Source: Sutcliffiella horikoshii (GTDB lineage: Bacteria > Bacillota > Bacilli > Bacillales > Bacillaceae_I). From it: DNA of 64,000 nt. A model generated the notes under the pieces. The model did not search any database, was not told the DNA's origin, and saw nothing but the letters and a program-made list of their open reading frames with translations. Within the stretch, counting starts at the first letter, position 1, and every line of letters begins with the position of its first letter. The position numbers and the translations under genes are program-made. The stretch covers positions 4,170,666 to 4,234,665 of the forward strand of contig KV440964.1 in assembly GCA_001636495.1 (NCBI GenBank). Reading direction: 5' to 3'. This document shows, one piece after another, positions 17,426-63,717 of the stretch.

Positions 17426-18283
17426 TTAGTTAGCTTGGCCATAGAAAGCATGAGCAGATTCCATTCTAATAGACTTTCCATTTTTATCATAACCACTAAT
17501 GGGATGGTAATGCCAAACCATATTCTTACCATTAGAGATTTCAGGAGCTGTAACTTTACCAATAGGGCTTGCTCCTTTAGCAACAGCTTGAGCATTAGTC
17601 TTTGATGTAGACCATGTGTTTTGTTTATTTCTTAATCGACTCTCTGCTTTTGATTTTGAAAGGCCACTACTAATGTGTAATTTCCCACCATTTATAGTAG
17701 CTATATAATGATTGTATTTCTTGTTCTTTTCATTATTAATAAAAGTATTTACTTCAATATACGTTAACCCACCAATTAATACGACTGATCCTGCAGCATA
17801 CAATGCAGCAATTGCCTTTGCAGATAAAGAAATGCCCCATGGGATTGCTATTACAATTGTAGGAGATGCGATAGAAGAATTATATTGATATTCTTTGCCT
17901 GTTGCTAGATCAGTATATTTAGCCACTAAACCTCTTTCATCTAAGCTTTCGATTACTAATGAGTAGCTTCTTACTTCATTAAATTCTTCTTGCACAGTTA
18001 CATTCATAGTATTATTACCTGGTTCAAAATCTACAATTGTAGTTACTTCTTCGGAATTCTCATCGTCTTCATTAACAACAGAAACTTCAAAGCTTACTTT
18101 GTCAGCAGTATATTCTAGATCCAGCAATTCTATGTTTTCTTCGATCAAAAGGTCTTCAAATATGTCAATAGATTCTTTAAGAATATGAGAATTTGCGCTG
18201 ACATTATTAAGTGGGTATACCAAGGTGAATACTAAAGTAGTAATTATTAATGTTATTATACTTTTATTGATTTTTTTATTCAT
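17426..18283 (-). CDS. SAR2788-family putative secreted toxin
   Basis: 285 residues: a signal peptide (IITTLVFTLVYPLNNVSA), an acidic beta-rich region (VSFEVSVVNEDDENSEEVTT ...), a hydrophobic segment around residues 145-180 (IVIAIPWGISLSAKAIAALY; GSVVLIGGLTYIEV) and a C-terminal basic domain with NMVWHYHPISGYDKNG and AHAFYG, which resembles a small His-dependent nuclease toxin tip. This matches the layout of SAR2788-type putative toxins. The start overlaps the end of the subtilase gene, so the two are translationally coupled; the subtilase may process it (inference). Confidence 0.75.
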   Translation of the reverse strand: MNKKINKSIITLIITTLVFTLVYPLNNVSANSHILKESIDIFEDLLIEENIELLDLEYTADKVSFEVSVVNEDDENSEEVTTIVDFEPGNNTMNVTVQEEFNEVRSYSLVIESLDERGLVAKYTDLATGKEYQYNSSIASPTIVIAIPWGISLSAKAIAALYAAGSVVLIGGLTYIEVNTFINNEKNKKYNHYIATINGGKLHISSGLSKSKAESRLRNKQNTWSTSKTNAQAVAKGASPIGKVTAPEISNGKNMVWHYHPISGYDKNGKSIRMESAHAFYGQAN

Positions 18284-19127
18284 TATTTAAATCTCCTGTT
18301 TTTAGTAATTTATTATTTTCTCTTTTGATGTTTTCAATCGACCACATGTGATTTATTGAAATAATCCCTGTTATGTATGCAGCAGCTAATGAAGCACCGC
18401 TTTCTACAGCAACTAAACCTTGGTTTTTCATCACTACAATTTCTTCGCCCGGAGCATAAACATCAATTTTTCCTTTAGAATTAAATTTACTTTTACCCAT
18501 AGACCGATTAATACTACCAACAGAAACAACATTCTCATAGCGGGCAGGATAATCTGGACTTAGCCCATAATTATTTCCGGCTGACGCAACAATTGTAATA
18601 TCATTTTTTACTGCCTCATCGACAATATCCTTTAATTCACGAAGATCATGACTAAATCCAAAACTAATATTTATTATGTCGACTCTGTTTTCAATACTCC
18701 ATCTTATACCTTCTACGACATGGTCAATTTGACCGCTTCCTTCATCATCAATTACCTTCACATCATAAATTTCCACATAAGGATTTATGCCACGAATAGT
18801 ATATTCATTTTCCTCAGCTGCAATTATACTAGCAACACTCGTTCCATGACCTAGATTGTCTTTAGTTTCAGATGTTTTTGTAATTGCGTTATATTTCCGA
18901 GTTACTTTTCCTTTTAACAAACCATTTTCATCATCAATTCCACTATCAAGTATTGCAATTTTTTTAAGTTCTTGTGCCTTCTTAATCGAATACTCTTGAT
19001 TTTTAAAGATTGAACATAAACCCCAATTAACTGCGCAATCTGTATCCCTAATAGATAAGTTTGTTTCTTTATGTGTGCTACAGCTAGTTAAAGACAATAT
19101 AAGAAGAAAAGAGATTAATACTTTCAT
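18276..19127 (-). CDS. Subtilase (S8) lipoprotein paired with the toxin
   Basis: 283 residues with a short lipoprotein signal (LISFLLILSLTSC) and almost no propeptide. The catalytic set is present: D61 (AILDSGID), H94 (LGHGTSVAS), N185 (SAGNNYG) and S246 in SGASLAAAYITG, where the usual GTS is GAS. The ATG at 19127 follows AGGTGG; a GTG at 19136 is less likely. A paralogue with the same gene order lies at 62776. Anchored outside the membrane it could cut or release the co-encoded toxin; this is inference. Confidence 0.85.
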   Translation of the reverse strand: MKVLISFLLILSLTSCSTHKETNLSIRDTDCAVNWGLCSIFKNQEYSIKKAQELKKIAILDSGIDDENGLLKGKVTRKYNAITKTSETKDNLGHGTSVASIIAAEENEYTIRGINPYVEIYDVKVIDDEGSGQIDHVVEGIRWSIENRVDIINISFGFSHDLRELKDIVDEAVKNDITIVASAGNNYGLSPDYPARYENVVSVGSINRSMGKSKFNSKGKIDVYAPGEEIVVMKNQGLVAVESGASLAAAYITGIISINHMWSIENIKRENNKLLKTGDLNNE

Positions 19128-19261
19128 ATGTTCCACCTAGTAAATTTTAAATTTAAATTAACCGAAGCGCCTATCGAGCCTGAAGTTTCAACAATAAATA
19201 TACCACCTCACCTTACGTCCTTTTAAAACACTAATGCTCTTTTAATGATATAAGGCAAATC

Positions 19262-32595: not shown

Positions 32596-32676
32596 GTGAT
32601 CCTCCAAATCATTTCAAAAAGTAGTTTATTCTATTAAAATTCTACAAAAATCTACACTATCCTTTATTTTCCACAA

Positions 32677-32705
32677 TAAAAAGACATGCGTAAACATGTC
32701 TTTTT
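32677..32705. terminator. Two-way terminator hairpin
   Basis: AAAAAGACATG and CATGTCTTTTT form a perfect stem around CGTAAA, at the end of the pyrophosphohydrolase gene. Confidence 0.85.
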
Positions 32706-32714
32706 ACCTAATGA

Positions 32715-33038
32715 TTAATCTTCCACTTCAACCAAAAACACCTTCTCCTCAAACCCACCACGCTTCTCAGCCTTTTCCCGACGAACCTTCTCTACTTCTT
32801 CCATAGAAGACCCATGGTAACCTGCTAGCGCCCGAACAATTTCTAAAAGATCCGCGAGTTCCTCCACAGCTTCCTCATTCGTATCCGCTGCACAGTACTC
32901 ATCAAGTTCCTCATAGCTCTTCAACTTGAGATACTTTATGTAATCTTCATCACTCAAAACTTTAGCCGTATATCTCTTCCCTGTTCCTTCAATTATCTGT
33001 GGAATTTTGTCCCGGACTAGTTTGTTGTAAACCGGCAT
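32715..33038 (-). CDS. MazG-like NTP/PRA pyrophosphohydrolase
   Basis: 107 residues. VYNKLVRDKIPQII at the start, then KSYEELDEYCAA and EEAVEELADLLEIVRAL give the E-x-x-E ... E-x-x-D metal-binding pattern of the all-alpha NTP pyrophosphatases. The ATG at 33038 is 8 bases after AGGAGG. A house-cleaning enzyme that may hydrolyse non-canonical NTPs; its place behind the McrBC-like pair may be chance. Confidence 0.85.
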   Translation of the reverse strand: MPVYNKLVRDKIPQIIEGTGKRYTAKVLSDEDYIKYLKLKSYEELDEYCAADTNEEAVEELADLLEIVRALAGYHGSSMEEVEKVRREKAEKRGGFEEKVFLVEVED

Positions 33039-33067
33039 TAGCATTCCTCCTAAAAATCAAAAAGCGT

Positions 33068-35515
33068 TCAATCTATCAGATACCTAAACAATTTCACACG
33101 GTCACTTTTAAACTCTTTAAAAGTTACTGTCTGCACCGTGCCTGCCTTATCTATCTCCACAACTTCATTTTCCCTATCAAAATTAACCGTCGCATCTTTA
33201 ATGGTGTAATTGGCAATCCGCTCTGCCTGATCCATCCTTTGATCATCCAACTCAATATGAATTCGATCAGACACCCGCCTTAGCATCTGCCAAACAACCT
33301 TCTCTTCTTCAGACTTCATGAACAACTCCGGTAACTCAGTAGCGTTTTCCAGACTTCTTATGGTCGTTATCATATAATGAGCAAATCCATATCCTACAGG
33401 CACAATAATCTTCTTCAATCTTGACCAGTGTTCGACTGAGAATGTTACTATGTCACCAGAAAACTCCAGATTACTTACCCTACCATAGCAAACAACCCCG
33501 TTTTCCATGCCAACTTCTTTTGTCAGGTAGAGTGCAACATACTGAGCCTCTTGCCACCCTTTTCTTAAAACAGAAGCAGCTAACGAGTACTTGGCTGATC
33601 TTATAGCTCGCGCATAATGCTCCTCTGAAGAAACCACTCCAACCAGTACCTTCTCTTCCACACTCTCTTGCCACTTTTGCAGAGAGCCTCTCGGTAAAAT
33701 GCCTTCCTTCTGAATATCCTCTGGACTCTTATCAATGAGATTCTCGATAAACCTTTCCACAAGGTCCGTAGCATTTGGCAAGAAAGGAAGTGCTCCAATA
33801 TTCACTTTCCCAATACTTTTGTAAAAGTGATGATCTTGGTAGACCTGTTCTTCATTCCATGGAAAAAGGACATACGCACCAAATGCAGTTCTCTCATAAG
33901 GCCCGTTATGCTCGGAGACTATAGAGTCTCTATAACGGTGCATCGTGTTAATGTCTTCTTCCATTGGACCAGGAGCGTTATATTTCTTTCCATAGTAGCT
34001 ACCTTCTAGCGCGAAATCGATTCTGTATTTTGCATCAAAGACATAGTTGAAGGTATAGCTTTCTCCTTTTTTCTCAATGCTGAGCATGGTGTCTGGCACC
34101 TGTGTAATGGTCGGAAGGTTGCCTTCGTATTTTTGATAGGTAAGGGTGATGCGCTCTTTGGTAACTGGGTGCTTAAATACACGCCTTGCTTTGCGGCTAC
34201 CTTCCATACTTACATGCAAGCCTTTTCTATCCACTTTGATGATGTCCTGGCTAATCATCTCATATTTCTTGTTTAGGATTTGGCCTAATTTTAGATAGGT
34301 CCAATACTCATATAGGGTTGCCACGTCCTTCACGGACATTTTGTACATGCCGTTTTGCAGGGCTAATCCTTTGGAAACGGTAAGGTAGATCTGATAGGCA
34401 TCGCGGTAGCCAGGAGCTAACTGCATGACGAGACTTTGGACGGTTCTATCTGGTAATGCAAGCTCTCGCCAGAAAGGGTTGCTAAGCTTCCTTGTGAGCG
34501 AGCGCTTCATTCCCTCTATGGTTTTTACTAACTCAGGGTCTTGATCCGCCTTGTTCCAGCGATTATTTTTGAACCTACAAAGTAAGTCTTCGAGTTTACT
34601 AGCAAGCCGCGTCATCATCCATTTCACAAAACGATTTTCATGTGTATGAAAGGTGATTTGCTTATTAACGGTCATTCCTTTAGTCGGCATAAATTGTTTG
34701 TCCCGAATTGGGATGCCATGGCTTACTTCTTGGAAAAGATGGCTGTTTTTTCGCAAGTAATTTCTGCCTTTTGCATCGAGCGATTTAATTCGGTCTCCTC
34801 TTACTATCTCATGTGTTTTGACTAACTTATGGTGTGGCTGTCGCTCAATTTGCTCCACAGCTTTTAGGAAAGCGTCAAAATAAACTGTGATCAAACGGAA
34901 AAATTCAGCAGGAGACGGCGAACCTTCTAGTTTCGTTTGTGCACTAAGAAACGTTTTCTTTAAAAAGTGAGAGGCGAGATTATAGATCTCATCGTTCACT
35001 TCATCTAAAAGCTTCCGATAGTCCTCCTTGTAATTGAGCTTTGTCGGGAAAACCTCCAGTGTTACCTCTAGCAGCGTCCGTTTCCCTTCTCTAATCTCAA
35101 AAGTAGAATAGCCGATTTCATTTTGAAAATGTAAATTTCCTAGCAACACATAAGACTGTCCGAGTTCCACGCGGTCAATTGCGTTTCGAAAAACTGGATG
35201 CTCGTGATAAAAAGTCAATTCTTTACCGTTTTTAGGAGACACCATAACCGTGTACACACCATTTTCAAAGAAGATCGGCCGGTGGGTGTGAAGGTCTACC
35301 AGTTCCAACGATTCGACATCAAAAACCTTTACCTCTTCATGGTCACCAACTACCCTGAAAAACATTTCATCGTGGAAGTCCAGATTGCGGTATTGCTGTA
35401 ATCCGATATACCGCTCATGATAGGGCTTTCCTTTAATCACCAAAGAAAAGTCAGCAGTTTCAATTTTGACCAGTTCCACATCACCTTTAGCTAATCCAGA
35501 AAGAGGTAAAGCCAT
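33068..35515 (-). CDS. DUF2357-domain nuclease, McrC-like partner
   Basis: 815 residues. The middle (KTHEIVRGDRIKSLDAKGRN; THENRFVKWMMTRLASKLED) and the late part (YNYVFDAKYRIDFALEGSYY region; DINTMHRYRDSIV; GAYVLFPW) match the DUF2357/PDDEXK_7 family; D in FDAKYRIDF and the nearby K fit a PD-(D/E)xK active site. Such proteins act with McrB-like AAA+ motors, as in LlaJI and related type IV systems. The start overlaps the end of the AAA+ gene by 29 bases, so the two act as a pair. Confidence 0.82.
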   Translation of the reverse strand: MALPLSGLAKGDVELVKIETADFSLVIKGKPYHERYIGLQQYRNLDFHDEMFFRVVGDHEEVKVFDVESLELVDLHTHRPIFFENGVYTVMVSPKNGKELTFYHEHPVFRNAIDRVELGQSYVLLGNLHFQNEIGYSTFEIREGKRTLLEVTLEVFPTKLNYKEDYRKLLDEVNDEIYNLASHFLKKTFLSAQTKLEGSPSPAEFFRLITVYFDAFLKAVEQIERQPHHKLVKTHEIVRGDRIKSLDAKGRNYLRKNSHLFQEVSHGIPIRDKQFMPTKGMTVNKQITFHTHENRFVKWMMTRLASKLEDLLCRFKNNRWNKADQDPELVKTIEGMKRSLTRKLSNPFWRELALPDRTVQSLVMQLAPGYRDAYQIYLTVSKGLALQNGMYKMSVKDVATLYEYWTYLKLGQILNKKYEMISQDIIKVDRKGLHVSMEGSRKARRVFKHPVTKERITLTYQKYEGNLPTITQVPDTMLSIEKKGESYTFNYVFDAKYRIDFALEGSYYGKKYNAPGPMEEDINTMHRYRDSIVSEHNGPYERTAFGAYVLFPWNEEQVYQDHHFYKSIGKVNIGALPFLPNATDLVERFIENLIDKSPEDIQKEGILPRGSLQKWQESVEEKVLVGVVSSEEHYARAIRSAKYSLAASVLRKGWQEAQYVALYLTKEVGMENGVVCYGRVSNLEFSGDIVTFSVEHWSRLKKIIVPVGYGFAHYMITTIRSLENATELPELFMKSEEEKVVWQMLRRVSDRIHIELDDQRMDQAERIANYTIKDATVNFDRENEVVEIDKAGTVQTVTFKEFKSDRVKLFRYLID

Positions 35516-38054
35516 CGTGCGTTAACCTCCTATACATCTCCACCAGTTTTTCTGTGCTACGTGGGTACTTAGAGAGCTTGATGTACGCAGTATAATCCTC
35601 TATATCCTCTGATAATTCTTGTTTTGTAAGCTGCTTAAATAAATCCTTTATCGTTTGTTCGACTCTACTGTCACTACCAGAAATTCGCGGTAAGATCTTC
35701 TGAACTAAACAATAATCAAAAGCATCCTCCTGCGAGAACAACTTTCCTTCCTGGTTATAGGCAAGATACATGCATATTTCATCACGAACACGGTAACCAA
35801 CCTGTGCACCAAGTGGCTTTAGTGCTTCATTTATACCAACTAACGTTAAAGAGGTTTTCTTTATTAACTCCATATGCTTGGAGGCGAGGTCTTTTAGAAA
35901 AAGATAGTCAGCACGAAGCATGCCATTTTCAATATACTTCGGTTCCATAGCTTCAGTGGTCCCTTGCAGGAAATCCAAATAATCCAACTGCACACGATTA
36001 AATTCAATGGTGTTCGCGCGATCTAATACCTTTTTGCTAAAAGGATGAGTAGTCTCATCCATATTAACCGTACCAACAATGTACATGTTCTCTGGAAAAC
36101 CAATAGACCTTCCTACCATTGAACTGTCCAAGATCTCAGAAGAAACAATCTCCCCATTCTTCCAGTTCCTACTCTCCATCACACTAAGCAGATCACTAAA
36201 GTAATACTCCACACGCGCAAGGTTCATTTCATCCAGTAGAACAAAATGTGGCTTGGTTGGGTTATCGAGAGCTTTTTGCATCACTTTCGTTAATGGCCCT
36301 TCCACAAAATCACCCTTAATATCCTTGTAGCCAATCAAATCAGAGCCATCGCTCCAATCCGGTCTCACAGGAATCAAAGTGAATTGCCCATTTTCTTCGG
36401 TTGCCCCTACACTCTCAGCAAACCACTCAATAATCTTTGTTTTCCCTGTTCCAGAAATACCGGAAATAATGACAAAGGGTTTCGTCTTTAATGATAGGAA
36501 AAGATTTGTTATCTCTTCCTTTTCATAAAAGAATCCCTTACTTTTTATGTACTGATAAATATGTTCCACTAGTGCCTTATTGCTCATATAATCAGCCTTT
36601 GGCACGGCGACAACCTTAGGTGGATCAGTTGGTTTATAGTTAATACCTTCATTTAAGCGAATAAACTCCTCATAGTATCTCACCATTTTTTCTAGGTCTC
36701 CTACTATTACGTCTTCAGAAGGAAAATCCTCTAGCTTATATTTCACATACACTGCAGTTGAGGCAGCATAGTCCCTTGCTCGTTTGGAAGGTCCAAGGTA
36801 GATGTTATCTTCCTTTTGAAAACGGTCATCCATCCAGATCTCAGTTCTAATAGCCTCCTTTATTCTCAGCATCTCTTCCTTAGACGTTTCCGTAACACCC
36901 TGCGCAAACGTCAGGTAGAGCTCCTGCAGATCCTCACTAAACAAATATCCAATGTAATATCCTCTTTGAGTAGAGATAGTAACCTTCTTATTCATTATGG
37001 CAATCCAAGGAACACTAGCCCAGTTTCCTTGGCCAACGGAGCCAGTTACTACATATTGTCCGTTAACAAACGGCAGCTTTTTTAACTCGTCTGTAATATC
37101 GTTACGTACGAAGGAACCTAATTCATGACCTCCAAAAGGTTGGGTTTTGGCTTGTGGGTAATTGTTCATGATATGCAAGAATTGATCTCTTAATCTAGTA
37201 CTCACTGTGTTTTCCTCCAAAAAAGTCTCTTCTATAGGTGACCAGTTACTATCTATTACTTCTAGTTTTTCTAGCCACATTAATAGGTTATGTGTTCGTT
37301 CCTTAGCAACCGACTCCACCATTAAGTTTTCGCCTTGAGAGTTGCGGACAATTAGCATTCCTAACTCAATAAGAGCAATTTTCTTTTCATTTTTGGGGTA
37401 ACCTTCTAAGAGCTGCAGAACAAAAAGTGCTATCTGAAAATATTCTTTTTCAAGTACAAGGTCTCTAATAAATGCTAGTTTATTAGGCGAGGCCTCATAG
37501 GCATGAAATTTCTCACTTATTTGATTTGCATCATTTAACAAACCGAGATGTCTTAAATCCTGTCTAGCTCTAGAAAGAATCCTATATTCGTTATCGTTTT
37601 TAGCTTGTTTGCTTAAAGCCGGAGGATCATAGGTACCCTCTGTAACTTGATCTAAAAATCTCACTACCTTATGGAATTGTTCACATGGAAGCTGATCCGT
37701 TTTAAATTCTTTTAGCTTGATCTTTGTTACATCTGGTTCTTTCATTACTTCTATATATGGAAGTAGTGCAAACAAAGCCATTATAAAAGATGATCTACCT
37801 CTAGTTTTGGTGAAATCATTTGCCGTAACCATTCTTCTTTGAATAAATTCTTCCCATGCGGTTGTTAAGAACTCAAAAGGGATGTATGCATGAGGATCAG
37901 TTGCTTCATTATTTTCAAACTTTCTTCGGGAAGATTCGGATTCTACATATATTCCGTTAGAATCGGTTCGGACTATTTTATTTGGTCGATTGGAGGTTAA
38001 TGTGTGGATGGTATTAACTTTGTTTAATAGTTCGAGTAATATTTTTGTTAGCAA
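35487..38054 (-). CDS. McrB-like AAA+ NTPase
   Basis: 855 residues from a TTG after GAGGAGG. The region about residues 310-460 (GQGNWASVPWIAIMNKKVTI; GYYIGYLFSEDLQELYLTFA) fits the MrcB N-terminal domain (DUF3578). The AAA+ part has Walker A ISGISGTGKTKII near residue 535, Walker B HFVLLDEMNLARVEYYFSDL and TVNMDETTHPFSKKVLDRAN at sensor 1, as in McrB-type motors. The first 300 residues are helical and may recognise target DNA. The motor would drive the DUF2357 nuclease that follows. Confidence 0.87.
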   Translation of the reverse strand: MLTKILLELLNKVNTIHTLTSNRPNKIVRTDSNGIYVESESSRRKFENNEATDPHAYIPFEFLTTAWEEFIQRRMVTANDFTKTRGRSSFIMALFALLPYIEVMKEPDVTKIKLKEFKTDQLPCEQFHKVVRFLDQVTEGTYDPPALSKQAKNDNEYRILSRARQDLRHLGLLNDANQISEKFHAYEASPNKLAFIRDLVLEKEYFQIALFVLQLLEGYPKNEKKIALIELGMLIVRNSQGENLMVESVAKERTHNLLMWLEKLEVIDSNWSPIEETFLEENTVSTRLRDQFLHIMNNYPQAKTQPFGGHELGSFVRNDITDELKKLPFVNGQYVVTGSVGQGNWASVPWIAIMNKKVTISTQRGYYIGYLFSEDLQELYLTFAQGVTETSKEEMLRIKEAIRTEIWMDDRFQKEDNIYLGPSKRARDYAASTAVYVKYKLEDFPSEDVIVGDLEKMVRYYEEFIRLNEGINYKPTDPPKVVAVPKADYMSNKALVEHIYQYIKSKGFFYEKEEITNLFLSLKTKPFVIISGISGTGKTKIIEWFAESVGATEENGQFTLIPVRPDWSDGSDLIGYKDIKGDFVEGPLTKVMQKALDNPTKPHFVLLDEMNLARVEYYFSDLLSVMESRNWKNGEIVSSEILDSSMVGRSIGFPENMYIVGTVNMDETTHPFSKKVLDRANTIEFNRVQLDYLDFLQGTTEAMEPKYIENGMLRADYLFLKDLASKHMELIKKTSLTLVGINEALKPLGAQVGYRVRDEICMYLAYNQEGKLFSQEDAFDYCLVQKILPRISGSDSRVEQTIKDLFKQLTKQELSEDIEDYTAYIKLSKYPRSTEKLVEMYRRLTHDGFTSFWIS

Positions 38055-38163
38055 TTGAATAGTCCTCCTCTGATTTATATACTCCTAAGTTTATGCTTCG
38101 ACAAAAACCAGCATTTCCCTGCTAAAAGACACTTTTGATCGAAGGAGCATATACCATTACAAC

Positions 38164-38200
38164 AAAGCCGACTCTCTTATATTTTCGAGAATCGACTTTG
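38164..38200 (-). terminator. Hairpin after the three-gene operon
   Basis: AAAGCCGACTCTC pairs with GAGAATCGACTTTG; the T run is weak, so termination is probable but not sure. Confidence 0.5.
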
Positions 38201-38315
38201 ACTTTACAGCTTAAGGTTTATTCGGGGTTAAGTAGAAAAAAGGTGGTTATTTATGTGGGCTGTCTCTACATTTTAAAAGCCAAACTAATCACAGTTTGAC
38301 TTTTTATGATTAGAA

Positions 38316-39407
38316 TTATTTATCATACCAAAACCAGGCAGGCCTATAATTTGATGCCTTTCCACCGGTTGGCTTAAATTTAAATCGCACTCCCGCTTCT
38401 TCTAATGGTTTTAAGGTACTTTCAATTTCTTTGTTCCCTATCAACCAGAGGGATCCGCCCTTACTACGATGGTCTACATATTTCAATTTATGACTATCTA
38501 AATAGTCTAGTAAGTTTTCTTTTAAAATAACTCCGCTATTTTCCGAAACAAAATCCTCTGTATTGAGGATGTGACTAGTAGCACTTATATCTTCGTAATC
38601 CAGCTCATCCTCAGCAAAATCAACGGCTACCTCTTTAAAGGAATATTCTTTTTCAGGGAATAATTCGGAAATATCATAATAATAGCTTAAGTACTCAATG
38701 AATAGCTTTTGGAGCTCTTCTTTTTCAAGCATTGGGGACATAATTACTGGATAGCTTTTATTAAATTCAAAAATAACACGTCTCCCAACACGTTCATCAT
38801 CCCCTAGATCTTCACGACCTTTAATTTTTGCTTTCAAAACTTTTGATAGGTTCAATTCGTCAATAATTCTTAAAATATTAATTAAAAAGTGATCATTTCT
38901 AAAAATCTCGTATTTTATCATATAATTATACAGATCTAAATTCTCAATAATTAATTCATAATACTTTAGACGCTCTTCTTGATTAGTGATGTTGTCATTG
39001 ATGTATTGTGCACCTAAAATGACTTTATAAATATAGTTCTCCCAGTCAAATTTCTTAAGGACCACATTTCTAAAATTATTTTCTTTCTCTGCCACTTCCG
39101 GATACTCCGTCAGGATAAAGTTTTGCTTGTTTGTTAAAAGTAACGAGTGCCAAAAAGTCTCATCCAAAAGCAAATCTCTCTCAGTGTTTAAGTAAAACTG
39201 TGAAATAGTTTGGAAAGCCTTTAAAAAGCTCTTTCTTCTTTCTTCTTCACTTCCTCGGCCCATATATATTGGGAAATCAGGAGCTTCTCGAATATAGACC
39301 ACCTTATCAGAAAAGTACTCCTCCTTTTCCTTTACTTTCCCCTCAAGGAAATCTGGATATAAAGAGTCCAAGTTTTTATATCCTTTTTCCAGTAGCCTAA
39401 CCTCCAT
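38316..39407 (-). CDS. DUF6339-like protein of the GHKL operon
   Basis: 363 residues, soluble. The middle part (LLLDETFWHSLLLTN; RNVVLKKFDWENYIYKVILGAQ region) resembles DUF6339 proteins. The last 70 residues (KYVDHRSKGGSLWLIGNKE; VRFKFKPTGG; YRPAWFWYDK) form a compact C-terminal module with a GGxLWxxG and PAWFW pattern also seen at ends of restriction and helicase proteins. No catalytic motif is visible. It overlaps the upstream gene by 11 bases and closes a three-gene unit. Confidence 0.65.
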   Translation of the reverse strand: MEVRLLEKGYKNLDSLYPDFLEGKVKEKEEYFSDKVVYIREAPDFPIYMGRGSEEERRKSFLKAFQTISQFYLNTERDLLLDETFWHSLLLTNKQNFILTEYPEVAEKENNFRNVVLKKFDWENYIYKVILGAQYINDNITNQEERLKYYELIIENLDLYNYMIKYEIFRNDHFLINILRIIDELNLSKVLKAKIKGREDLGDDERVGRRVIFEFNKSYPVIMSPMLEKEELQKLFIEYLSYYYDISELFPEKEYSFKEVAVDFAEDELDYEDISATSHILNTEDFVSENSGVILKENLLDYLDSHKLKYVDHRSKGGSLWLIGNKEIESTLKPLEEAGVRFKFKPTGGKASNYRPAWFWYDK

Positions 39408-40245
39408 ATGTAATAACCTCCCCTAACGCTGATGTATATCTCTCAATAATTCGATCCGAGATCGTATATATGACTTCATCAATATTATCCATGTTTAGTT
39501 CTGATACGTTCTTCTTCTTCAACAAATAATATAACTTTAGATCTAAAGGATTTTCTGGTTCTTGAATATCATCCAAATCCACATCACCATCTTCACCATT
39601 ATTCATGATAAATGCCAGAAGTGCTTTAGAAAGCCCTGCATATATGTAAGGGTTGTTTAGCACATTGCTTTTTGGGAGGTGATTAAACTGAAACTCCGGT
39701 CTTCTATAATGGATAATTATTGTCTCCTGCCCCAATTCAACCTTAATATCTGAGTTTAGGTTCTCATCCAATTTCTTTTCAAAGAGTTCAAATGGCTTGT
39801 TAATGCTGCCATCGAATGTAATGACGTTGGAATAACCTAATAAAAAATACTTAGGGACCGTTATCTGGTCTCTAAATTGAATATAGAATTCACTTAAATC
39901 ATCATTTCTCGCAAAAAATACATCATCCAAGGCTTGAATTTGTAACTGGATGGACGTTCGCTTATTCAGAGAAATTCGGCTTTTGTGGAGCTTCACAGAC
40001 CTATCCATTGCATTCAATCTGAAGAATTTATTATCCTTAGATTGAATTATTAGAATTACTTGTGCTTTCCCGTTCCTTATCTGTTCTCTAATAAAATCTG
40101 AATCAATTTCATAATCAAATTCAAAGTGAAAATAGTCTGCATTTTCACTAACGTTCACATCTAGGTCAAAGATGTTATTAACGTAGCTTTGGGAAGTATT
40201 AGACAAAACTGGATATGGAAAATTGGCATCTTTTCGATAGATCAC
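39397..40245 (-). CDS. Unknown protein, middle gene of the GHKL operon
   Basis: 282 residues, soluble and beta-rich in the first two thirds (YFHFEFDYEIDSDFIREQI; VILIIQSKDNKFFRLNAMD; RTSIQLQIQALDDVFFA), then helical (YIYAGLSKALLAFIMNN; NIDEVIYTISDRIIERY). No family recognised. It starts 3 bases after the GHKL ATPase gene and overlaps the next, so all three are translated together. Confidence 0.7.
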   Translation of the reverse strand: MIYRKDANFPYPVLSNTSQSYVNNIFDLDVNVSENADYFHFEFDYEIDSDFIREQIRNGKAQVILIIQSKDNKFFRLNAMDRSVKLHKSRISLNKRTSIQLQIQALDDVFFARNDDLSEFYIQFRDQITVPKYFLLGYSNVITFDGSINKPFELFEKKLDENLNSDIKVELGQETIIIHYRRPEFQFNHLPKSNVLNNPYIYAGLSKALLAFIMNNGEDGDVDLDDIQEPENPLDLKLYYLLKKKNVSELNMDNIDEVIYTISDRIIERYTSALGEVITYGG

Positions 40246-40248
40246 TCC

Positions 40249-42174
40249 TTACACCTCCACGTAATAAACAAACTTCAATGATCGATTGAAGGATTTTCTT
40301 AATTTTAATTGTAGTAAAGCAATTCCGTCCTTTATTTGGACATTCTTAATAACATTTTTTTTGTAAGAGCAAGTTTCTCCAGCTTTCATATCCACAATTC
40401 CTTGATAGCTATTTTGAATCTGAAATTCATCTGAATATTCAACACCCATCCCATCAATAATTGAAAACGAGATATTGCAGGCATTCTCTCCAGCAAGTTG
40501 ATCGCTTTTAGTGAAATTAAACTTAATCATCTCTTCATTATTGAGAATGATCCTTTCCACCATATCCGGGTGTACACTGTACCGTTCTTTTCCTTCTGTA
40601 TTATCATTAATATTTTCATTGCTTTTTTGTTTTTTTAGAGGATCTCGTTTTCGGATAGCAGTGGTTTTCCCGCTATCTTTGCTGGTATTTTCTTTTGGCC
40701 CACGCTTTTCTTTTTGGGATTGTCTTGTTGTCGACTTGACTAACGATTTCCCTTGATTTATTTTCACAGTTCCCATAGAGGTTTCAAGATCTTTTTTAAA
40801 CTGTGTTTCAACAACATATAGGATATCTTGTGTATCTATCAAGCCATCTGTCGGATTGTTTTCATTAATTGCCTCTTTAATAACCTTTGCAATTTCCATT
40901 GATAAATTATTAATAAATCTTGTCGCTAGCCTCTTTAATTTCTTATCACTAAAGTGATCTTTTGATAGTTGTGTGTGTGATTCATTTTCTAGGGACTTCA
41001 AATAAGCATCTTCATTAGGACCACCGATAAGGACTGCATTATAGGGTTTAGTAGCGTTACCCGTAACTTTAAAGTCTTCAATCTTCATTCCTATTGTACG
41101 TACAACCGCTACTCTTCCCCTTGGGATCCTTTCATCATATCTAAAGTAAAGCTGAAAGCTGAAGTCTTTTTCTCCATTTGATACTGTAATTTCTTTAGCA
41201 GGCATACCCAAATATGTATCTATATATAAAGGGGTGAATTCTTTCTTTGCCTCTTTAATATCTTGATTATAATAGTCTTGATCTTTGACATACTGCAAAA
41301 TCGTATCTTTATTAATTTCCTTTTCATTCACATGTACTTGCAACTTATCTTTTAGAATGGATATGAAAAAGCTATCACAAATACTTTTAATTATTTCTTT
41401 TTCATCATCATATTCCTCGCGGAGATATGGAATAACGATTTTTAAGCCTCTTGTATTTTTCGTAAACACTTTATGAAAGGTGTTCTCATAAGGATAGAAC
41501 TTTGTGTTACCGTTTTCCTCCTGTTGTACCTTAGTAAAGTATCCTGTTGACCTGTAGGCCTGGCCATTATGAACATGCTCAATCAATTGTACAGTACCAC
41601 CCAGATGTTGATCACCGTTTGCATCACAATTGGCGAAGTACATCACATGGAAATCTGAGGCTGCATTAGAAGCAATTTTCCCAACCCCATGAGATCCACC
41701 TCGTGAAACTTCTACATCTACACTATCTTCCTCAAAGTGAACACCCTTGTTATAAGCATAGATCCCCCAGGTATCTTTTTTCGATCCGCTTTGTCCGTTT
41801 CTGGCACCTGTCAAACCTCGCGTATTTATATCTTCAAAAGAAATATATCTAACCTCATTTTGATCAAGCCTGTTCTTCATATGACTTATAGTTTCTTTTG
41901 TATAGTTATTGCGTCCTTCAAGTTTCAGAATGCGGTTTTTAACTTCTTTAATACCTGGAATATTCTCTTTATGAATTGTTCCTACTTCGATTTTCAAAAC
42001 AACTGGTCCATCATAATTCAATAAGCGACCATCCAATGAATTTTGTATATTTTCTCGGACTAAACCACTTACGCCCATGTCATGAAAACGTTCTAGCGAT
42101 TTATTAAAATTCGATTCTTCTATATTTGGAATAGGGGAGAACTTCCATTTTTCCTGAGTAGGCATTTGTGACAT
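40249..42174 (-). CDS. GHKL-type ATPase (Hsp90/MutL-like ATP site), defence-type
   Basis: 641 residues. The ATP site of the GHKL fold is visible: the N box VRENIQNSLDG (E41, N42), SFEDINTRGLTG (D116, G120) and the lid SRGGSHGVGKIASN (157-170). The next 250 residues include an S5-like part (EDAYLKSLENESHTQLSKDH). A basic low-complexity stretch (STTRQSQKEKRGPKEN) separates a C-terminal beta domain (NIQNSYQGIVDMKAGE-like region). No histidine-kinase dimerisation helix is present. Similar ATPases occur in several multi-gene phage-defence systems. It heads a three-gene operon. Confidence 0.78.
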   Translation of the reverse strand: MSQMPTQEKWKFSPIPNIEESNFNKSLERFHDMGVSGLVRENIQNSLDGRLLNYDGPVVLKIEVGTIHKENIPGIKEVKNRILKLEGRNNYTKETISHMKNRLDQNEVRYISFEDINTRGLTGARNGQSGSKKDTWGIYAYNKGVHFEEDSVDVEVSRGGSHGVGKIASNAASDFHVMYFANCDANGDQHLGGTVQLIEHVHNGQAYRSTGYFTKVQQEENGNTKFYPYENTFHKVFTKNTRGLKIVIPYLREEYDDEKEIIKSICDSFFISILKDKLQVHVNEKEINKDTILQYVKDQDYYNQDIKEAKKEFTPLYIDTYLGMPAKEITVSNGEKDFSFQLYFRYDERIPRGRVAVVRTIGMKIEDFKVTGNATKPYNAVLIGGPNEDAYLKSLENESHTQLSKDHFSDKKLKRLATRFINNLSMEIAKVIKEAINENNPTDGLIDTQDILYVVETQFKKDLETSMGTVKINQGKSLVKSTTRQSQKEKRGPKENTSKDSGKTTAIRKRDPLKKQKSNENINDNTEGKERYSVHPDMVERIILNNEEMIKFNFTKSDQLAGENACNISFSIIDGMGVEYSDEFQIQNSYQGIVDMKAGETCSYKKNVIKNVQIKDGIALLQLKLRKSFNRSLKFVYYVEV

Positions 42175-42498
42175 TGTTGTCAGTCTCCTTCACAACTTGT
42201 TTAGGTTATTAAACTTAAAAATAGGACATTAGAACACTATAGAATTATTTTTCAACACACAATTTAATAGTATTTTACCATGTATATCCATTGAAAAATA
42301 TGTTATATTAAACAATTTCTACTCTAACCTAATAAATTTTGAGCAAAAAGAAAGACCGCTAAATTAGTGGTCTTAATCTTTGTCCATATATCAAAATTAT
42401 TCTACTATGAGTACAAAAAAGGTTTTCTAATTTGTCCGTATTTAGGCTGAAACTAGAATGAGTTTGATAGTTTTATTTAGTATTAAAATAGAGTTTAA
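42175..42498. other. Intergenic region before the GHKL operon
   Basis: AT-rich and without a supported gene. It holds the terminator of the helicase gene at 42352 and presumably the promoter of the GHKL operon; I could not fix promoter boxes. Confidence 0.5.
42352..42374 (-). terminator. Terminator after the NERD-UvrD gene
   Basis: AAGACCGCTAA and TTAGTGGTCTT form the stem; the minus strand continues TCTTTTTGC. Confidence 0.75.
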
Positions 42499-44427
42499 TT
42501 ATTTATGAGTATTCATTACTTTATTACCAGTATTCAATAGCTCTTCTTTCTTCCACCCCTCAAAATAAGAAGTAAACTCCGACTCCCCAGAATACGAAAT
42601 ACACAAATATTCCTTCGCTCTCGTCATTCCAATATACATCAACGAAACTTCCCGTTCCTTATCCTTTTCAAGGGGGAATGGCATGGTATCCGCTTTCACA
42701 ATAAACACTGCTTGGAAGTCCAGCCCTTTGCTGCTGTCTATTGTGCTAATTTTTACGGTCTCTTCTTCTCTATTAAAAGCTCTTTTGCTTGCTTCGTTTT
42801 CTGTTATCCATGTTGTGGGGATATCTTCTTTTAATAAAGCTCTTTGGATAGTCCCAATAATGTCTGCTTTATGTGTTCGTTTTACACGATATAGAATGAG
42901 CATTTCAGAGTAAGGAACTTTCCGCACTTGGTGGAGCTGTTGTATTTGTCTTGCTATAATCTGCATTTCTTTTGCAAAGCTTTCTGCTTTTAAGATGGCT
43001 GGTTCTGGCCCTTTGCGTTTCGTGCTTTTCGGCGATATTATCTCTACGCCTTCCGTTTCGCCTACTACTACCTTGTTTTGCAGCGAAGAATTCTTTTGGA
43101 AGAAGTCCCAGGCACAGTTGACGATTTGTGATGTGTTCCGGTAGTTGATATTCAGTATTTTCGATCTACCACGGAAATCCAGCCCCGTGTCCTTGAGATA
43201 GCTCCTTTTTCTTGGATAAATTGTTTGTGCACGGTCTTCTACAAGCAGTAGTGCTTTGGTTTCAGGGTTTAGACATAAGCTGACGAGATGAAGCCAGCTT
43301 GCTTCAAAGTCCTGTCCTTCGTCAATAAGGATAGCGTCATATTTAGGAGCAATTGCTTCTCCCTTCTCTAACTTCTCAATATATGTATCGATGATTCCCT
43401 CACTCATCTTCAGGTCATTTTTCAACCATTGATGAAAGTTTCTTACTTCAATATTCCTAGGAGTTGGCTGGATCTGTATTTCCCCATCACCAAAATGAAA
43501 GTCAAATAGATTATCAGGCTCCAACGCCATCGCTCTTACTATTTGCGCGATATTTTTGGAGAGTGATATGTTATAGCACAAAATCAAGATTTTCCAATCA
43601 GGATTTTCTTTCGCAAGCATCTTTGCTCTACTCGCCAGAATAATGGTCTTCCCACTGCCTGCTACTCCACGAATAAGTCTGTTTTTATCTCCAATTTGTT
43701 TGGCCATGTTCTCTTGGTGGAAATCCATTGTTTTAATATCTCTTAAAGATAGAAGCAGTTGATCCTGGTAAGGTACAGGTTCTTTGAATTCTGCACCAAT
43801 ACGAACCTCTGGAAATAGATAATACCTAATCGTATTAATTTCTTCATATGTAAGTGGCTCTCTCAATCTAAAAGGTACTTGGAACATATTGATTAATTTC
43901 TCGGCAAGCACTTCCTCAGAAAACTCCTCATAATCCGGATCTATCTCTTCCCGTGTAAGCATGCTGTCCGGATCAATGATAGAATAGATCCCGTCCTCTA
44001 GAACCTGCTTTTGGTTTAGCCGTGTAAAAACAACGCCATAGCCATAAGGAAACTTTAATTTAAACTGATGTTTCCCTTCTGTTTGGATCAGATTCTTATC
44101 CTTCTTCAAAACATCATTTATCTTAAACACGTAATCTCTTGCTTGTTTAAGCGGACTCTTCACACTATGTAGATTTCCACCAGTATCCCTAATCGTCCAC
44201 TCATCCTTATTCAACTGATATAACGTATTTCTTGTATAATCCTTCACCTCGAGCACAATCAGTCCCAAATCGGGACCAATAATCACAAAGTCCGGCCTAG
44301 TCCCTTGAATCTCCGGCTCATAATACACTATATAGTCATCCGGCAAATACTCCTTCAAAGTGCGGAACAAAATCCTTTCCCCAGAAGTAGCACTGCTCCT
44401 AATCGTTTCCGGAACCGTAACGGCCAT
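42499..44427 (-). CDS. NERD-domain nuclease fused to UvrD-type helicase
   Basis: 642 residues from an ATG at 44427 (TAGGTGAAAAGA upstream). Residues about 10-130 form a NERD domain: GERILFRTLKEYLPDDY, then GTRPDFVIIGPDLGLIVLEV with K in EVKDY. From about residue 235 an SF1A helicase follows: Walker A RGVAGSGKTIILASR, Walker B AILIDEGQDFEASW, motif III-IV (ALLLVEDRAQTIYPRKR), RNTSQIVN, and ISTIDSSKGLDFQAVFIVKA plus LMYIGMTRAKEYL at the end. A DNA repair or defence enzyme; the pairing of NERD and helicase suggests a self-contained DNA-degrading machine. Confidence 0.88.
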   Translation of the reverse strand: MAVTVPETIRSSATSGERILFRTLKEYLPDDYIVYYEPEIQGTRPDFVIIGPDLGLIVLEVKDYTRNTLYQLNKDEWTIRDTGGNLHSVKSPLKQARDYVFKINDVLKKDKNLIQTEGKHQFKLKFPYGYGVVFTRLNQKQVLEDGIYSIIDPDSMLTREEIDPDYEEFSEEVLAEKLINMFQVPFRLREPLTYEEINTIRYYLFPEVRIGAEFKEPVPYQDQLLLSLRDIKTMDFHQENMAKQIGDKNRLIRGVAGSGKTIILASRAKMLAKENPDWKILILCYNISLSKNIAQIVRAMALEPDNLFDFHFGDGEIQIQPTPRNIEVRNFHQWLKNDLKMSEGIIDTYIEKLEKGEAIAPKYDAILIDEGQDFEASWLHLVSLCLNPETKALLLVEDRAQTIYPRKRSYLKDTGLDFRGRSKILNINYRNTSQIVNCAWDFFQKNSSLQNKVVVGETEGVEIISPKSTKRKGPEPAILKAESFAKEMQIIARQIQQLHQVRKVPYSEMLILYRVKRTHKADIIGTIQRALLKEDIPTTWITENEASKRAFNREEETVKISTIDSSKGLDFQAVFIVKADTMPFPLEKDKEREVSLMYIGMTRAKEYLCISYSGESEFTSYFEGWKKEELLNTGNKVMNTHK

Positions 44428-44506
44428 TCTTTTCACCTACCGACAAAATATTACTTTAATTATAGCAAAAGAACTATAAATTTTACATAAAGTTACATAA
44501 AATTCA

Positions 44507-44542
44507 AAAAAGGTGCAGTAATTTATTACTGAGCACCTTTTT
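44507..44542. terminator. Two-way terminator hairpin
   Basis: AAAAAGGTGCAGTAAT and ATTACTGAGCACCTTTTT form a strong stem with A/T runs on both sides. Confidence 0.85.
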
Positions 44543-45359: not shown

Positions 45360-46058
45360 TTATCTTTCACAAGCCCAACCATCTTTATCCCTGTCATGTT
45401 TAGGTGCATAAGCTGGGTGGTCGGAACCTACTCCATTTGGATATACTTTGCGCAATTCTGTACAGTTTTGGAAACTTTCTTTCGGAGCTGGTGGTGGCGT
45501 TGCCGCTGCCTTAGCCTTAGCTTCTTCCTCTGCTTTAGCTCTAGCTGCAGCTTCTTCCTCCGCTTTTTTACGAGTTGCTTCCTCTTCTGCTAGTTTACGC
45601 TGACGCTCTTCTTCTTCCAAGCGCTGTCTTTCTGCAAGTTCTTTCGCTTTTTGTTCTGCTTCTAAACGTTTTTGTTCTGCTTCTTGTTTAGCTTTCTCTT
45701 CTTCCATTTTTTTCTGCTCAGCTAACTCTTTTGCTTTTTCTGCTTCTAATGCTTTTGTTTTTTCTGCTTCTTCCTTCTTTTTCTGCTCTTCTAAATCTTT
45801 CTTTTTAGCTTCTTCTTCTCTTTCCTTATTAGCTTCTTCTTTGGATAAAGCATTTGCTTCGGTAGCTAATGTTTGTTCTGGTTGGTCGGGTGCGGTGATA
45901 CCGACACCGATAAAGGAAATGACGAATGCTGTGCCTCCTGTAATTAATACTTTCTTTCTAGAATTCATTTTGAATAAAGAAGGTTTGATCAGGCCGATAA
46001 GAATGAAGGGTAAACTAAAGAAAACGATTAAAGCAAATATTGTACTAATAAACGCCAT
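45360..46058 (-). CDS. Membrane-anchored coiled-coil protein with C-terminal Excalibur domain
   Basis: 232 residues: two hydrophobic segments (about 1-28 and 36-54), a long charged coiled coil (about 70-185, EEEKAKQEAEQKRLEAEQKA type), and a C-terminal Excalibur calcium-binding domain (FQNCTELRKVYPNGVGS, then DRDKDGWACER). The layout and anchor resemble the Ltp-repeat protein at 4082, with a different head. Excalibur domains bind Ca and occur on surface proteins and nucleases. The head would lie outside the cell, tied to the membrane by the stalk. Confidence 0.85.
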   Translation of the reverse strand: MAFISTIFALIVFFSLPFILIGLIKPSLFKMNSRKKVLITGGTAFVISFIGVGITAPDQPEQTLATEANALSKEEANKEREEEAKKKDLEEQKKKEEAEKTKALEAEKAKELAEQKKMEEEKAKQEAEQKRLEAEQKAKELAERQRLEEEERQRKLAEEEATRKKAEEEAAARAKAEEEAKAKAAATPPPAPKESFQNCTELRKVYPNGVGSDHPAYAPKHDRDKDGWACER

Positions 46059-47777: not shown

Positions 47778-48998
47778 CTAACTAATCATTTTCTTTGCAA
47801 CATAAAATCTTCTGCCTAACCATGCTAGTGCAGCTACTCCAATTCCTCCTGCTGCCGCTTTCTGGTTTGTCTCTACTTCTTCTTCATACTCTTTATAGCC
47901 TAATTCATAATAATGGTCGAAAATAACTTCTCCCTTATCATATCCGCTTGGAATATCTTTTGAGTTACCTTCTCTCCCCTGGGCAAATGCAGTTTCCCTA
48001 ATTTCTATAACTTCTTTATTTGACTCAAAACCTACTCTATACCATTCTATTAATTTATCATTGGCTATCTCAGCCTTCTCGTAATCCACCATTTTAAAAG
48101 CAGCTTCATAACCTTGGTTGATATACTCTTCTTTTAACTCAGCCTGGGCTTTATCATACCCTTCCTGATACGCTTTAGCATAACCTTCATCAAGTTCATT
48201 AGGAAGAAAATACACATCTTCTTTACCGTCTTTATAACCAAGACTTACAAGCTCTTTTTTCTTCGCTTCCACACGTTCATTGACAGCTTTCAAAAAACCG
48301 GTTTCAAATGATGTCTTCAATATTGGATTAGAACTATATACTTCTGGAATTTGTATTTCGTCCTGATTCTGACCCAAAGCATAACCATCATCATATGCCT
48401 TTGATTTCTCAGATTCTATTTTTCCCTTACCTTCTCCATATCCTTTGTTATATCCTGTTTCATAACCTTGTTTATACGCAGCAGAACCAGAAGCTGCTAT
48501 ACTATTTTTCTTCGCTTCTTGAATTGCATTTTTATAACCTTGATCATATCCTGTTACTTCACCATTTGTTTTGTCTTGTTGGTCCTGCTTGTACTGAGCT
48601 TGCTCAGGGCTATTATTTATCTTTGTTTTGTCATATCCAGCAGGAGGTTCACAGGGAATACCATCGTCTACTACCCCATTTCCAAAGCCGTCCAAATTTT
48701 CAGGATCGTATGTAGCTGAGTAACCTTTTGCATTCCAATATTCAACAACTTCATCAAACGTTGCAAAATCAGAGCAATCTTTATCCCTTCTAGTAACAGG
48801 CGCCGGTGCAGTACCACCACCAGTTGATGAGCCTCCGCCGCCATTATGATAGTGGTAACCGGTACATAATCCTTTTGCAATAGATTTTTCACTACAATTG
48901 TGTCCCCCTCTGGAATCCGTTCTTCCAGAGTGTGCTTCTGCAACAGTTGCCAGCATTAAAATAGTTAAAAAGATAAACATAGCGGTTATATTCTTCAT
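47778..48998 (-). CDS. YHYH/Excalibur-type surface protein with GYxxG repeats
   Basis: 406 residues. Signal peptide (IFLTILMLATVAEAHSG), then a YHYH domain (DSRGGHNCSEKSIAKGLCTG, then YHYHNGGGG), then a calcium-binding-like stretch (RDKDCSDFATFDEVVEYWNA; GNGVVDDGIPCEPPAGYDKT), then many GYxxG-type repeats (YKQGYETGYNKGYGEGKG; YAKAYQEGYDKAQAEL) and a C-terminal membrane helix (GGIGVAALAWLGRRFY). It would thus be bound to the membrane with the domain outside. The role is unknown. The start at 48998 fits the signal peptide; the frame also extends to 49031. Confidence 0.78.
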   Translation of the reverse strand: MKNITAMFIFLTILMLATVAEAHSGRTDSRGGHNCSEKSIAKGLCTGYHYHNGGGGSSTGGGTAPAPVTRRDKDCSDFATFDEVVEYWNAKGYSATYDPENLDGFGNGVVDDGIPCEPPAGYDKTKINNSPEQAQYKQDQQDKTNGEVTGYDQGYKNAIQEAKKNSIAASGSAAYKQGYETGYNKGYGEGKGKIESEKSKAYDDGYALGQNQDEIQIPEVYSSNPILKTSFETGFLKAVNERVEAKKKELVSLGYKDGKEDVYFLPNELDEGYAKAYQEGYDKAQAELKEEYINQGYEAAFKMVDYEKAEIANDKLIEWYRVGFESNKEVIEIRETAFAQGREGNSKDIPSGYDKGEVIFDHYYELGYKEYEEEVETNQKAAAGGIGVAALAWLGRRFYVAKKMIS

Positions 48999-49036
48999 AA
49001 CCTCATCACTTCTCCTCAAAATACAGCACAAAAAAG

Positions 49037-62411: not shown

Positions 62412-62775
62412 TTTTATATTCACCTTCCTCGAAAATCCTGTCTAATTGATTAATACCAATTATTTCATAATGTATAATTTCCTACAATAAATTATTCTGA
62501 TTTTTGCCTAAATAGAATAAGCGTTAATCCTTATGGATAGCGCCATTTTAAACTGCTATATTGGTATTTTATTAGATGTTATGAGATTTACCAAAAGTTT
62601 TTTAATGAAGGGGGATAACTATAAAGCATTTATCAATTTCATATTGGATAAATGGTCGAAGGACATCCTCAAAATAGAAGGTGGAATTTTTGGTATATTT
62701 GTTGAATATTGTATCTGTATTCATTATAATGATAAAGTTCTTATCCATGTTTTACTAATAGAAGTGAGGGATGTA

Positions 62776-63717
62776 GTGATAAAAAGACAACTTTATTTAA
62801 TCTTACTTATCTTATTATTAGTTATTATAGTAATAATCTTTTTTCAAAGTTTCTTAGTATCTAAGCAATCCGATGATGAATTGAAACTAGAATCACAAGT
62901 CACATCATGGGGATACGATTTATTGATATCTGACATTTTTCTAGAACATAATGAAAAGGTCAAGATTGCTATTATTGACAGTGGAATAAACAAAGATCAT
63001 GAAGATTTACAACACATTAAATTCACTGAATTTAATGTTCTAGACAAAGAAACCGCCATTATTGATGAGTTTGGTCATGGAACAGCTATTGCTGGGATTA
63101 TAGCAGCAGAAAATAATGAATTTGGAGTAGTTGGATTATCTCTAAATGTAGAAATTTATGATGTGAAAATATTAAATGAAAATGGGAAAGGCGAGATTGA
63201 ACATCTAATTGAAGCAATTGATTGGTGTATTGAACAAAATGTAGAAATAATTAATTTAAGTTTTGGTTTTCAAACAGAAAGCAAACCACTAAAAGAGGCT
63301 ATTGATAGAGCTATATCAGAAGGCATTATTATAGTTGCATCCGTCGGCAACACATTTGGTATGCGTGGTGATTATCCTGCAATTTATGAAGATGTTATTT
63401 CAATAACATCGGTTGATGAAGACTTAAACCGTTCTAGTTTTGCCTCTAAACATGATATTGACTACGCCATGCCAGGAGAAAATATATACACCACTAATAA
63501 AGATGGTAGTTATTCGTTTTTCAATGGAACAAGTTTTGCTACTGCCCATGCAACAGGGATCATCTCTATCCTCCTCGAGTATTATGAACAAGAACAAAGT
63601 GAATTTAAAAAGAATACTAGTTTTGAAGATTATTTAAAACAGCATTCCTTTTCAAAAAATGATTGGGAATTTAGTGATTATGGAAACGGCATTTTAAAAT
63701 TAAGAAAAGAGGACTAA
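62776..63717 (+). CDS. Subtilase (S8) membrane-anchored protease, second copy
   Basis: 313 residues from a GTG at 62776 (GAGGG 5 bases before). One N-terminal helix (LYLILLILLLVIIVIIFF) and a compact S8 domain: D68 (AIIDSGIN), H101 (EFGHGTAIAG), N192 (SVGNTFG) and S253 (NGTSFATAHATG). There is no propeptide. It resembles the lipoprotein subtilase at 18276 (same YDVKxxxxxGxGxIxHxxE region) and like it is directly followed by a SAR2788-type gene. A reading frame open upstream to 62533 is probably non-coding. Confidence 0.85.
   Translation: MIKRQLYLILLILLLVIIVIIFFQSFLVSKQSDDELKLESQVTSWGYDLLISDIFLEHNEKVKIAIIDSGINKDHEDLQHIKFTEFNVLDKETAIIDEFGHGTAIAGIIAAENNEFGVVGLSLNVEIYDVKILNENGKGEIEHLIEAIDWCIEQNVEIINLSFGFQTESKPLKEAIDRAISEGIIIVASVGNTFGMRGDYPAIYEDVISITSVDEDLNRSSFASKHDIDYAMPGENIYTTNKDGSYSFFNGTSFATAHATGIISILLEYYEQEQSEFKKNTSFEDYLKQHSFSKNDWEFSDYGNGILKLRKED

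Follow-up and report, generated by a model that had tools for sequence, protein, structure and literature searches.

A three-gene operon with a putative GHKL-type ATPase in Sutcliffiella horikoshii as a divergent relative of the defence candidate PDC-M33

A role in restriction systems was proposed for prokaryotic MORC-like ATPases in 2008. Excerpts of that account (Iyer 2008, PMC2292703) describe the paraMORC2 GHKL proteins as found mostly in Gram-positive bacteria and cyanobacteria, in restriction-modification operons, and name an ExxxH as conserved in their S5 domain. An N-terminal GHKL domain also appears in the Shedu protein VcSduA, where, in the extract of its description, it is hypothesised to gate the nuclease of the protein (PMC12137116). 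Other PDC entries of PADLOC are treated as candidates not yet published, some having turned out to be identical to systems with a different published name, as an extract of one source states (PMC11811056), and according to part of another, PDC-M63AB and PDC-S04 were inactive in one host (PMC12409345). No experimental tests of this MORC-like ATPase family were found in the open-licence literature searched. Here we analyze three adjacent genes, A, B and C, in a stretch of 64,000 nucleotides (the window) from a genome of Sutcliffiella horikoshii (4.26 Mb, 3 contigs, 99.9% complete). Judged by its profile matches, the trio is a divergent relative of the PADLOC candidate PDC-M33, and not a new system. 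An earlier note on the window, made from its letters, had placed the three genes exactly, as checked on the open reading frames (ORFs):

40249..42174, minus strand: gene A, putative GHKL-type (paraMORC2-like) ATPase, PDC-M33A relative, 641 amino acids (aa), ATG start (ORF, PDC-M33A match, motif counts)
39397..40245, minus strand: gene B, beta-rich N-terminal and helical C-terminal part, PDC-M33B relative, 282 aa, GTG start (ORF, PDC-M33B match, AlphaFold2)
38316..39407, minus strand: gene C, DUF6339-like core (about residues 1-252) and a tail, 363 aa, ATG start (ORF, DUF6339 match, hhalign)
38316..38549, minus strand: tail of C, residues 287-363, similar to the ZorC C terminus (match to positions 505-561 of the 570 in the ZorC1 model)

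Six proteins of the window were scanned against the PADLOC models. A matched PDC-M33A over residues 8-617 (E 1.2e-53) and B matched PDC-M33B over residues 7-185 (1.8e-11), while C gave no match to PDC-M33C at E<=1 and the C of another locus, L092, gave none at E<=0.1. Since the window C lacks this match, we consider the trio a relative and not a strict member of PDC-M33. A locus of the sister clade, L037, matched the A, B and C models with values of 1.8e-227, 1.4e-96 and 4.6e-101, and the B and C of L110 (the only two of its proteins scanned) matched PDC-M33 models as well. A quick tree built on 89 A proteins separated the window clade of 63 (clade 1) from the others with a support of 100; the remote rows, according to a warning by the tool, include long branches, and the clade sizes follow the sampling of the best 80 relatives. 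Comparing the two clades with hhalign gave 6e-42 for A, 1.5e-13 for B and 0.0074 for C (clade-1 C trimmed to 255 residues), and all the mismatched gene pairs gave 0.15 or worse. The alignment of C was collinear over 240 columns, if weak (probability 5%), and together with position and length it suggests that the window C is homologous to PDC-M33C. The earlier note had proposed an undescribed system. PADLOC already lists the sister version, so that this part has to be given up, but the window does represent a divergent clade, whose two scanned C proteins (window and L092) are beyond the reach of the PDC-M33C model. A full-text search of the open-licence literature, outside which most subscription papers fall, found no paper for 'PDC-M33' or 'DUF6339' and nothing on such a trio; PDC-M33 may be equal to a published system under another name.

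The three genes appear to be translated as one unit, as had been proposed: their order is A-B-C, A and B are 3 bp apart, the ORFs of B and C overlap by 11 bp, and a purine-rich stretch resembling a ribosome site is found (by eye) at the start of all three. Profile searches and a count of co-occurrence, the check that the earlier note had put forward, indicate that they also stay together more than by chance. A scan at the species level (84,980 species, each represented by a single genome) yielded 213 relatives of A; as only the best 80 were kept, the remote kin of A are under-sampled. The locus set was made of the window and 99 fetched loci, less 11 duplicates, and the frames of the trio loci were called mechanically. 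Filtering left 84 A proteins with a length of 560 aa or more, a total in which the window and L022, its near-copy, are both included. All 84 have B and 82 have a C of at least 235 aa; the remaining two C genes (L074 and L080) run off the contig end. Excluded from this count were L058 (A in two frames next to a whole B and C), L103 and L081 (shortened A, B and C not seen) and L091 and L102 (A truncated by contig ends). Around 201-2200 of L081 a match to residues 10-478 of A is followed by an unrelated frame of 698 aa, with B and C not found in the stretch, and this looks like a degraded or interrupted copy.

Relatives of A were present in 20 of 199 related genomes, the window's own included, always with A, B and C in order (20/20). 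In an even draw over the phylum a profile found A in 9 of 398 genomes, among them the same genome and the remote G339. The trio is thus constant in the loci seen. Its hosts are Bacillus- and Clostridium-like bacteria, in which it sits in defence islands. Searching with tblastn, we found relatives of A on 21 of 72,556 plasmid records (two cover at least 80% of A), from hosts that include Ligilactobacillus, Lactococcus, Enterococcus, Deinococcus and Arthrobacter; one of the 21, an Acetoanaerobium 'plasmid', is 2.6 Mb long. A single phage record out of 50,697, unannotated and of 6.2 kb, carried one.

The boxes of A come in the order E41..N45..D48, D115xNTxG120 and G159-G160-S-x-G163-x-G165-K166. 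Their E, N, D, G and K are invariant in the 87 A sequences counted, a set that leaves out the two most remote, MZA-like relatives, and the same is true of R359, E396 and H400 (87/87):

42031..42054, minus strand: N box of A, residues 41-48, ExxQNSxD (E41, Q44, N45 and D48 in 87/87)
41812..41832, minus strand: G1-like box of A, residues 115-121, DxNTxGL (D115 and G120 in 87/87; N117 and T118 in 85/87)
41677..41700, minus strand: G2/lid-like box of A, residues 159-166, GGSxGxGK (G159, G160, G163, G165 and K166 in 87/87; S161 in 86/87)
40975..40989, minus strand: ExxxH motif of A, residues 396-400 (E396 and H400 in 87/87; a paraMORC2 motif in the excerpts of Iyer 2008)

From these boxes, set against the GHKL consensus, A is very probably a GHKL ATPase. 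The E396-xxx-H400 fits the ExxxH given for paraMORC2 in those excerpts, the identity of this stretch as S5 being putative.

The AlphaFold2 model of B (pLDDT 88.8, pTM 0.57) has mostly strands over residues 26-180 and helices after them, which agrees with its former description as beta-rich; the packing of its domains is unsure. The residues kept in at least 85% of the B proteins are mainly non-polar (P10, Y11, P12, L14, Y21, F26, Y121, I176 and others), N114 being the polar one, and no catalytic set could be seen among them by eye. Near-constant residues of C by the same measure include E83, W86, N171, D204 and N216, and a PDB sequence search with C gave no matches. C had been called DUF6339-like. 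This holds well in the sister clade, where the C of L037 matches at 7.5e-55 and by this match is a true DUF6339 protein, but only weakly in the window (E 0.022, below the cut-off). In clade 1, C is either about 252 aa long or, with the tail, 363-395 aa. The ZorC-like tail is limited to seven of the 83 C proteins, a number that includes two near-copies. All seven branch near the window, inside a set of nine rows (support 99) that includes two tail-less ones, and alone they have a support of 72. Among the 1780 proteins of the fetched loci only long C proteins carry this tail. The idea of a common plasmid domain was discarded, as a tblastn of 65 residues gave zero matches in the 72,556 plasmids at E<=0.01.

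Overall, the trio looks like a pared-down, ATP-driven core of a restriction-like antiviral machine, the leading reading, to which we give somewhat less than even odds. As an anti-phage candidate, which is how it had been presented, it is partly supported: the trio is constant in the loci seen, but it is the relative of a candidate already listed. A number of results speak against a GHKL-driven core of restriction type. No HATPase family was found at E<=10 in 18 A members (Pfam; the HMMER filters drop most weak matches), A was not among the 35 matches of HATPase_c_3 at E<=1 in the window's own genome, and no GHKL chains appeared among the matches of a PDB profile search with A. Aligned to MutL by hhalign, just 15 columns of A, at the N box, were covered (E 0.061), and hhalign of A to MutL, HtpG and kinases (those recognised by eye) did not support GHKL. 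The best PDB match of A (1.4e-7) was dismissed, being a designed repeat protein whose score was summed over eight weak helix matches. The GHKL reading of A is retained because of the motif boxes, despite the lack of support from profile searches; of the 'clear GHKL boxes' of the earlier note, the order and constancy stand, but the profiles do not back them.

On the restriction side, none of the three proteins showed a nuclease, helicase or DNA-binding domain. The hhalign values of B (0.15) and C (0.02) against the two genes that follow an MZA-like GHKL gene were not significant, and this homology was rejected even if the right pair was the best for each. A B-sized gene of a Synechococcus plasmid gave no significant match to B (untrained profile). 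A C5-methylase lies within 5 kb of 12 out of 28 sister-clade loci vs just 6 out of 62 clade-1 loci, with none in the window (Fisher p 0.001, in a test that ignores kinship and over stretches of unequal length, with 7 of 9 profile seeds from outside the window clade). Genomes with the trio and no C5-methylase at E<=1e-10 were 9 of 20: in the window clade 7 of 13, the window's own among them (the other six have one), and in the sister clade 2 of 7. With 6 of 62 loci and 7 of 13 genomes, the frequent bond to C5-methylation seems loosened, not absent, in the window clade. In L110 and L115 a methylase frame overlaps the start of A; the assignment of this upstream gene to DUF4420 was rejected, since by motif (eye) and homology it is C5-methylase-like. 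Neither was a helicase or nuclease found as a constant neighbour. From 89 loci we gathered the adjacent genes on the same strand that lie within 500 bp and are no shorter than 100 aa; there were 101, or 99 after dropping two from L022. The 25 commonest families were considered, with counts that have no background set. The top Pfam families reached 11 of 99 each (ResIII 11, GmrSD_N 11, GmrSD_C 9, Helicase_C 8, DEAD 8, AAA_19 7, PLDc_2 6), and the models of C5-methylase, NERD and UvrD 5 each. HEC-06, Orf5 and SspE were the commonest PADLOC matches (9 each, probably the same proteins), with mREase_IV at 7.

Frames on the same strand were found within 100 bp upstream in 20 of 83 A genes and within 150 bp downstream in 28 of 85 C genes; the latter had an opposite-strand frame directly downstream in 24 cases and nothing before the contig end in two, so the unit often stands alone. 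Such isolation would fit a stand-alone immunity in which the trio blocks phage DNA uncut, as a MORC/SMC-like clamp or silencer, with neither methylase nor nuclease. The absence of nuclease families from A, B and C, the mostly non-polar constant residues of B and the nine genomes with no C5-methylase point the same way, but polar residues of C (E83, N171, D204, N216) could be catalytic in an unknown fold and putative nucleases accompany the remote relatives, and we hold this tentatively, as somewhat unlikely. Rather unlikely too is that the window clade has become an immune machine free of methylase, helicase and nuclease, with a MORC-like ATPase and two scaffold subunits, that recognises foreign DNA, locks it uncut and has split from MZA-like restriction systems. 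The variable end of C in clade 1, and the gating hypothesised for the GHKL domain in the extract on VcSduA (PMC12137116), would be consistent with abortive infection, A sensing the infection and licensing a toxic effector, either C or its tail; yet C has no toxin or nuclease match and the tail is missing from 76 of 83 C proteins, which makes this distinctly unlikely.

Two loci, L039 and L173, adjoin housekeeping genes (fumarase; glycyl-tRNA synthetase), as would be seen if this were an ordinary housekeeping or chaperone-like operon that happens to sit in islands. Against this, the presence is patchy in relatives and phylum alike, 21 plasmid records carry relatives, many neighbours are restriction genes (counted with no background set) and PADLOC lists a candidate, so that we regard it as very unlikely. 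A system of four genes, with the adjacent nuclease as fixed effector, is likewise very unlikely: the gene next after C encodes PDDEXK_4 in L027 and L030 and GmrSD in L028, L031 and L040, but a close same-strand gene is seen in those 28 of 85 loci only and its family varies. As a general rule it was discarded, since what follows C varies between loci and frequently lies on the opposite strand. In the same-genus genomes G001 and G006, a PDDEXK_4 gene of about 460 aa follows C.

The flanking genes named in the earlier note agree with the profile matches. Upstream of the trio there is a NERD-UvrD helicase (NERD 9.7e-12, UvrD_C 6.9e-25), and downstream, after a gap of 261 bp with a hairpin and a T stretch (by eye), a McrB-like gene (MrcB_N 1.9e-54) and a McrC-like gene (DUF2357 4.9e-80, PDDEXK_7 4.3e-55). 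These genes, the trio and a 109-aa gene past McrC form a block shared with S. horikoshii DSM 8719, whose A is 100% identical to that of the window when rounded:

32632..44541, no strand: shared block, likely a transferred cassette, 11.9 kb (94.9% identity over 11,911 bp with Sutcliffiella horikoshii DSM 8719)

The block ends sharply on both sides, and the flanks of the window find only matches under 40 bp in the DSM 8719 genome (G002), which suggests transfer as a cassette. None of 16 genomes of the genus showed a clean empty site; the flank on one side of the block has a 95% match in G012, where the other side is unmatched, and elsewhere that side gives only short or low-identity pieces.

Several trio loci have in their vicinity a recurring pair of genes, one of about 108 aa (by eye MazG/NTP-pyrophosphatase-like) and, beside it, one of about 806-815 aa; the pair is possibly a small system of its own. 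The small gene is located at:

32715-33044 in the window
13025-13351 in L024
14779-15105 in L031
16898-17224 in L034
12719-13045 in L109
12582-12908 in L114

Adjoining the defence block, the window encodes at 47778-49031 and 45360-46058 two repeat-rich, secreted-looking proteins with Asp-rich motifs like calcium sites, which we take to be excalibur-like. Elsewhere in the window, at 18276-19136 and 62533-63717, there are two subtilisin-like proteases (by eye only).

The trio would join a PADLOC candidate, DUF6339 and MZA-like operons in one family. A three-gene version with no methylase, helicase or nuclease would isolate the role of the ATPase for testing, and it could show a route from a restriction machine to stand-alone immunity. 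Like VcSduA of Shedu, as described in the extract, A would be a GHKL ATPase in a defence protein, but none of A, B and C matches the DUF4263 nuclease domain at E<=1. The tail of C resembles the end of ZorC (E 1.1e-5) over 57 residues only, whereas ZorA, ZorB and ZorD were not found among the six window proteins scanned; with so short a match and no match to the ZorA/ZorB motor, Zorya membership was ruled out. The same six proteins have no Mza match at E<=1, and a remote relative of A matches PDC-M33A, not MzaA or MzaB. With paraMORC2, compared through excerpts of the text of Iyer 2008 (PMC2292703) and not by alignment, A shares the N-terminal GHKL motifs and the Gram-positive and cyanobacterial hosts; its later ExxxH (87/87) may correspond to the one in S5, and the methylase, Vsr or helicase neighbours in part of its family may reflect a restriction-modification context. 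It differs in that neither a methylase nor Vsr nor an SF2 helicase is linked to it in the window, and B and C are not described in those excerpts. PDC-M33 has the identical gene order, with three genes A, B and C, but the quick tree sets the window clade apart (support 100, branch length 4.77), the two C proteins of the clade that were scanned fall outside the PDC-M33C model, and the subclade of the window adds the ZorC-like tail.

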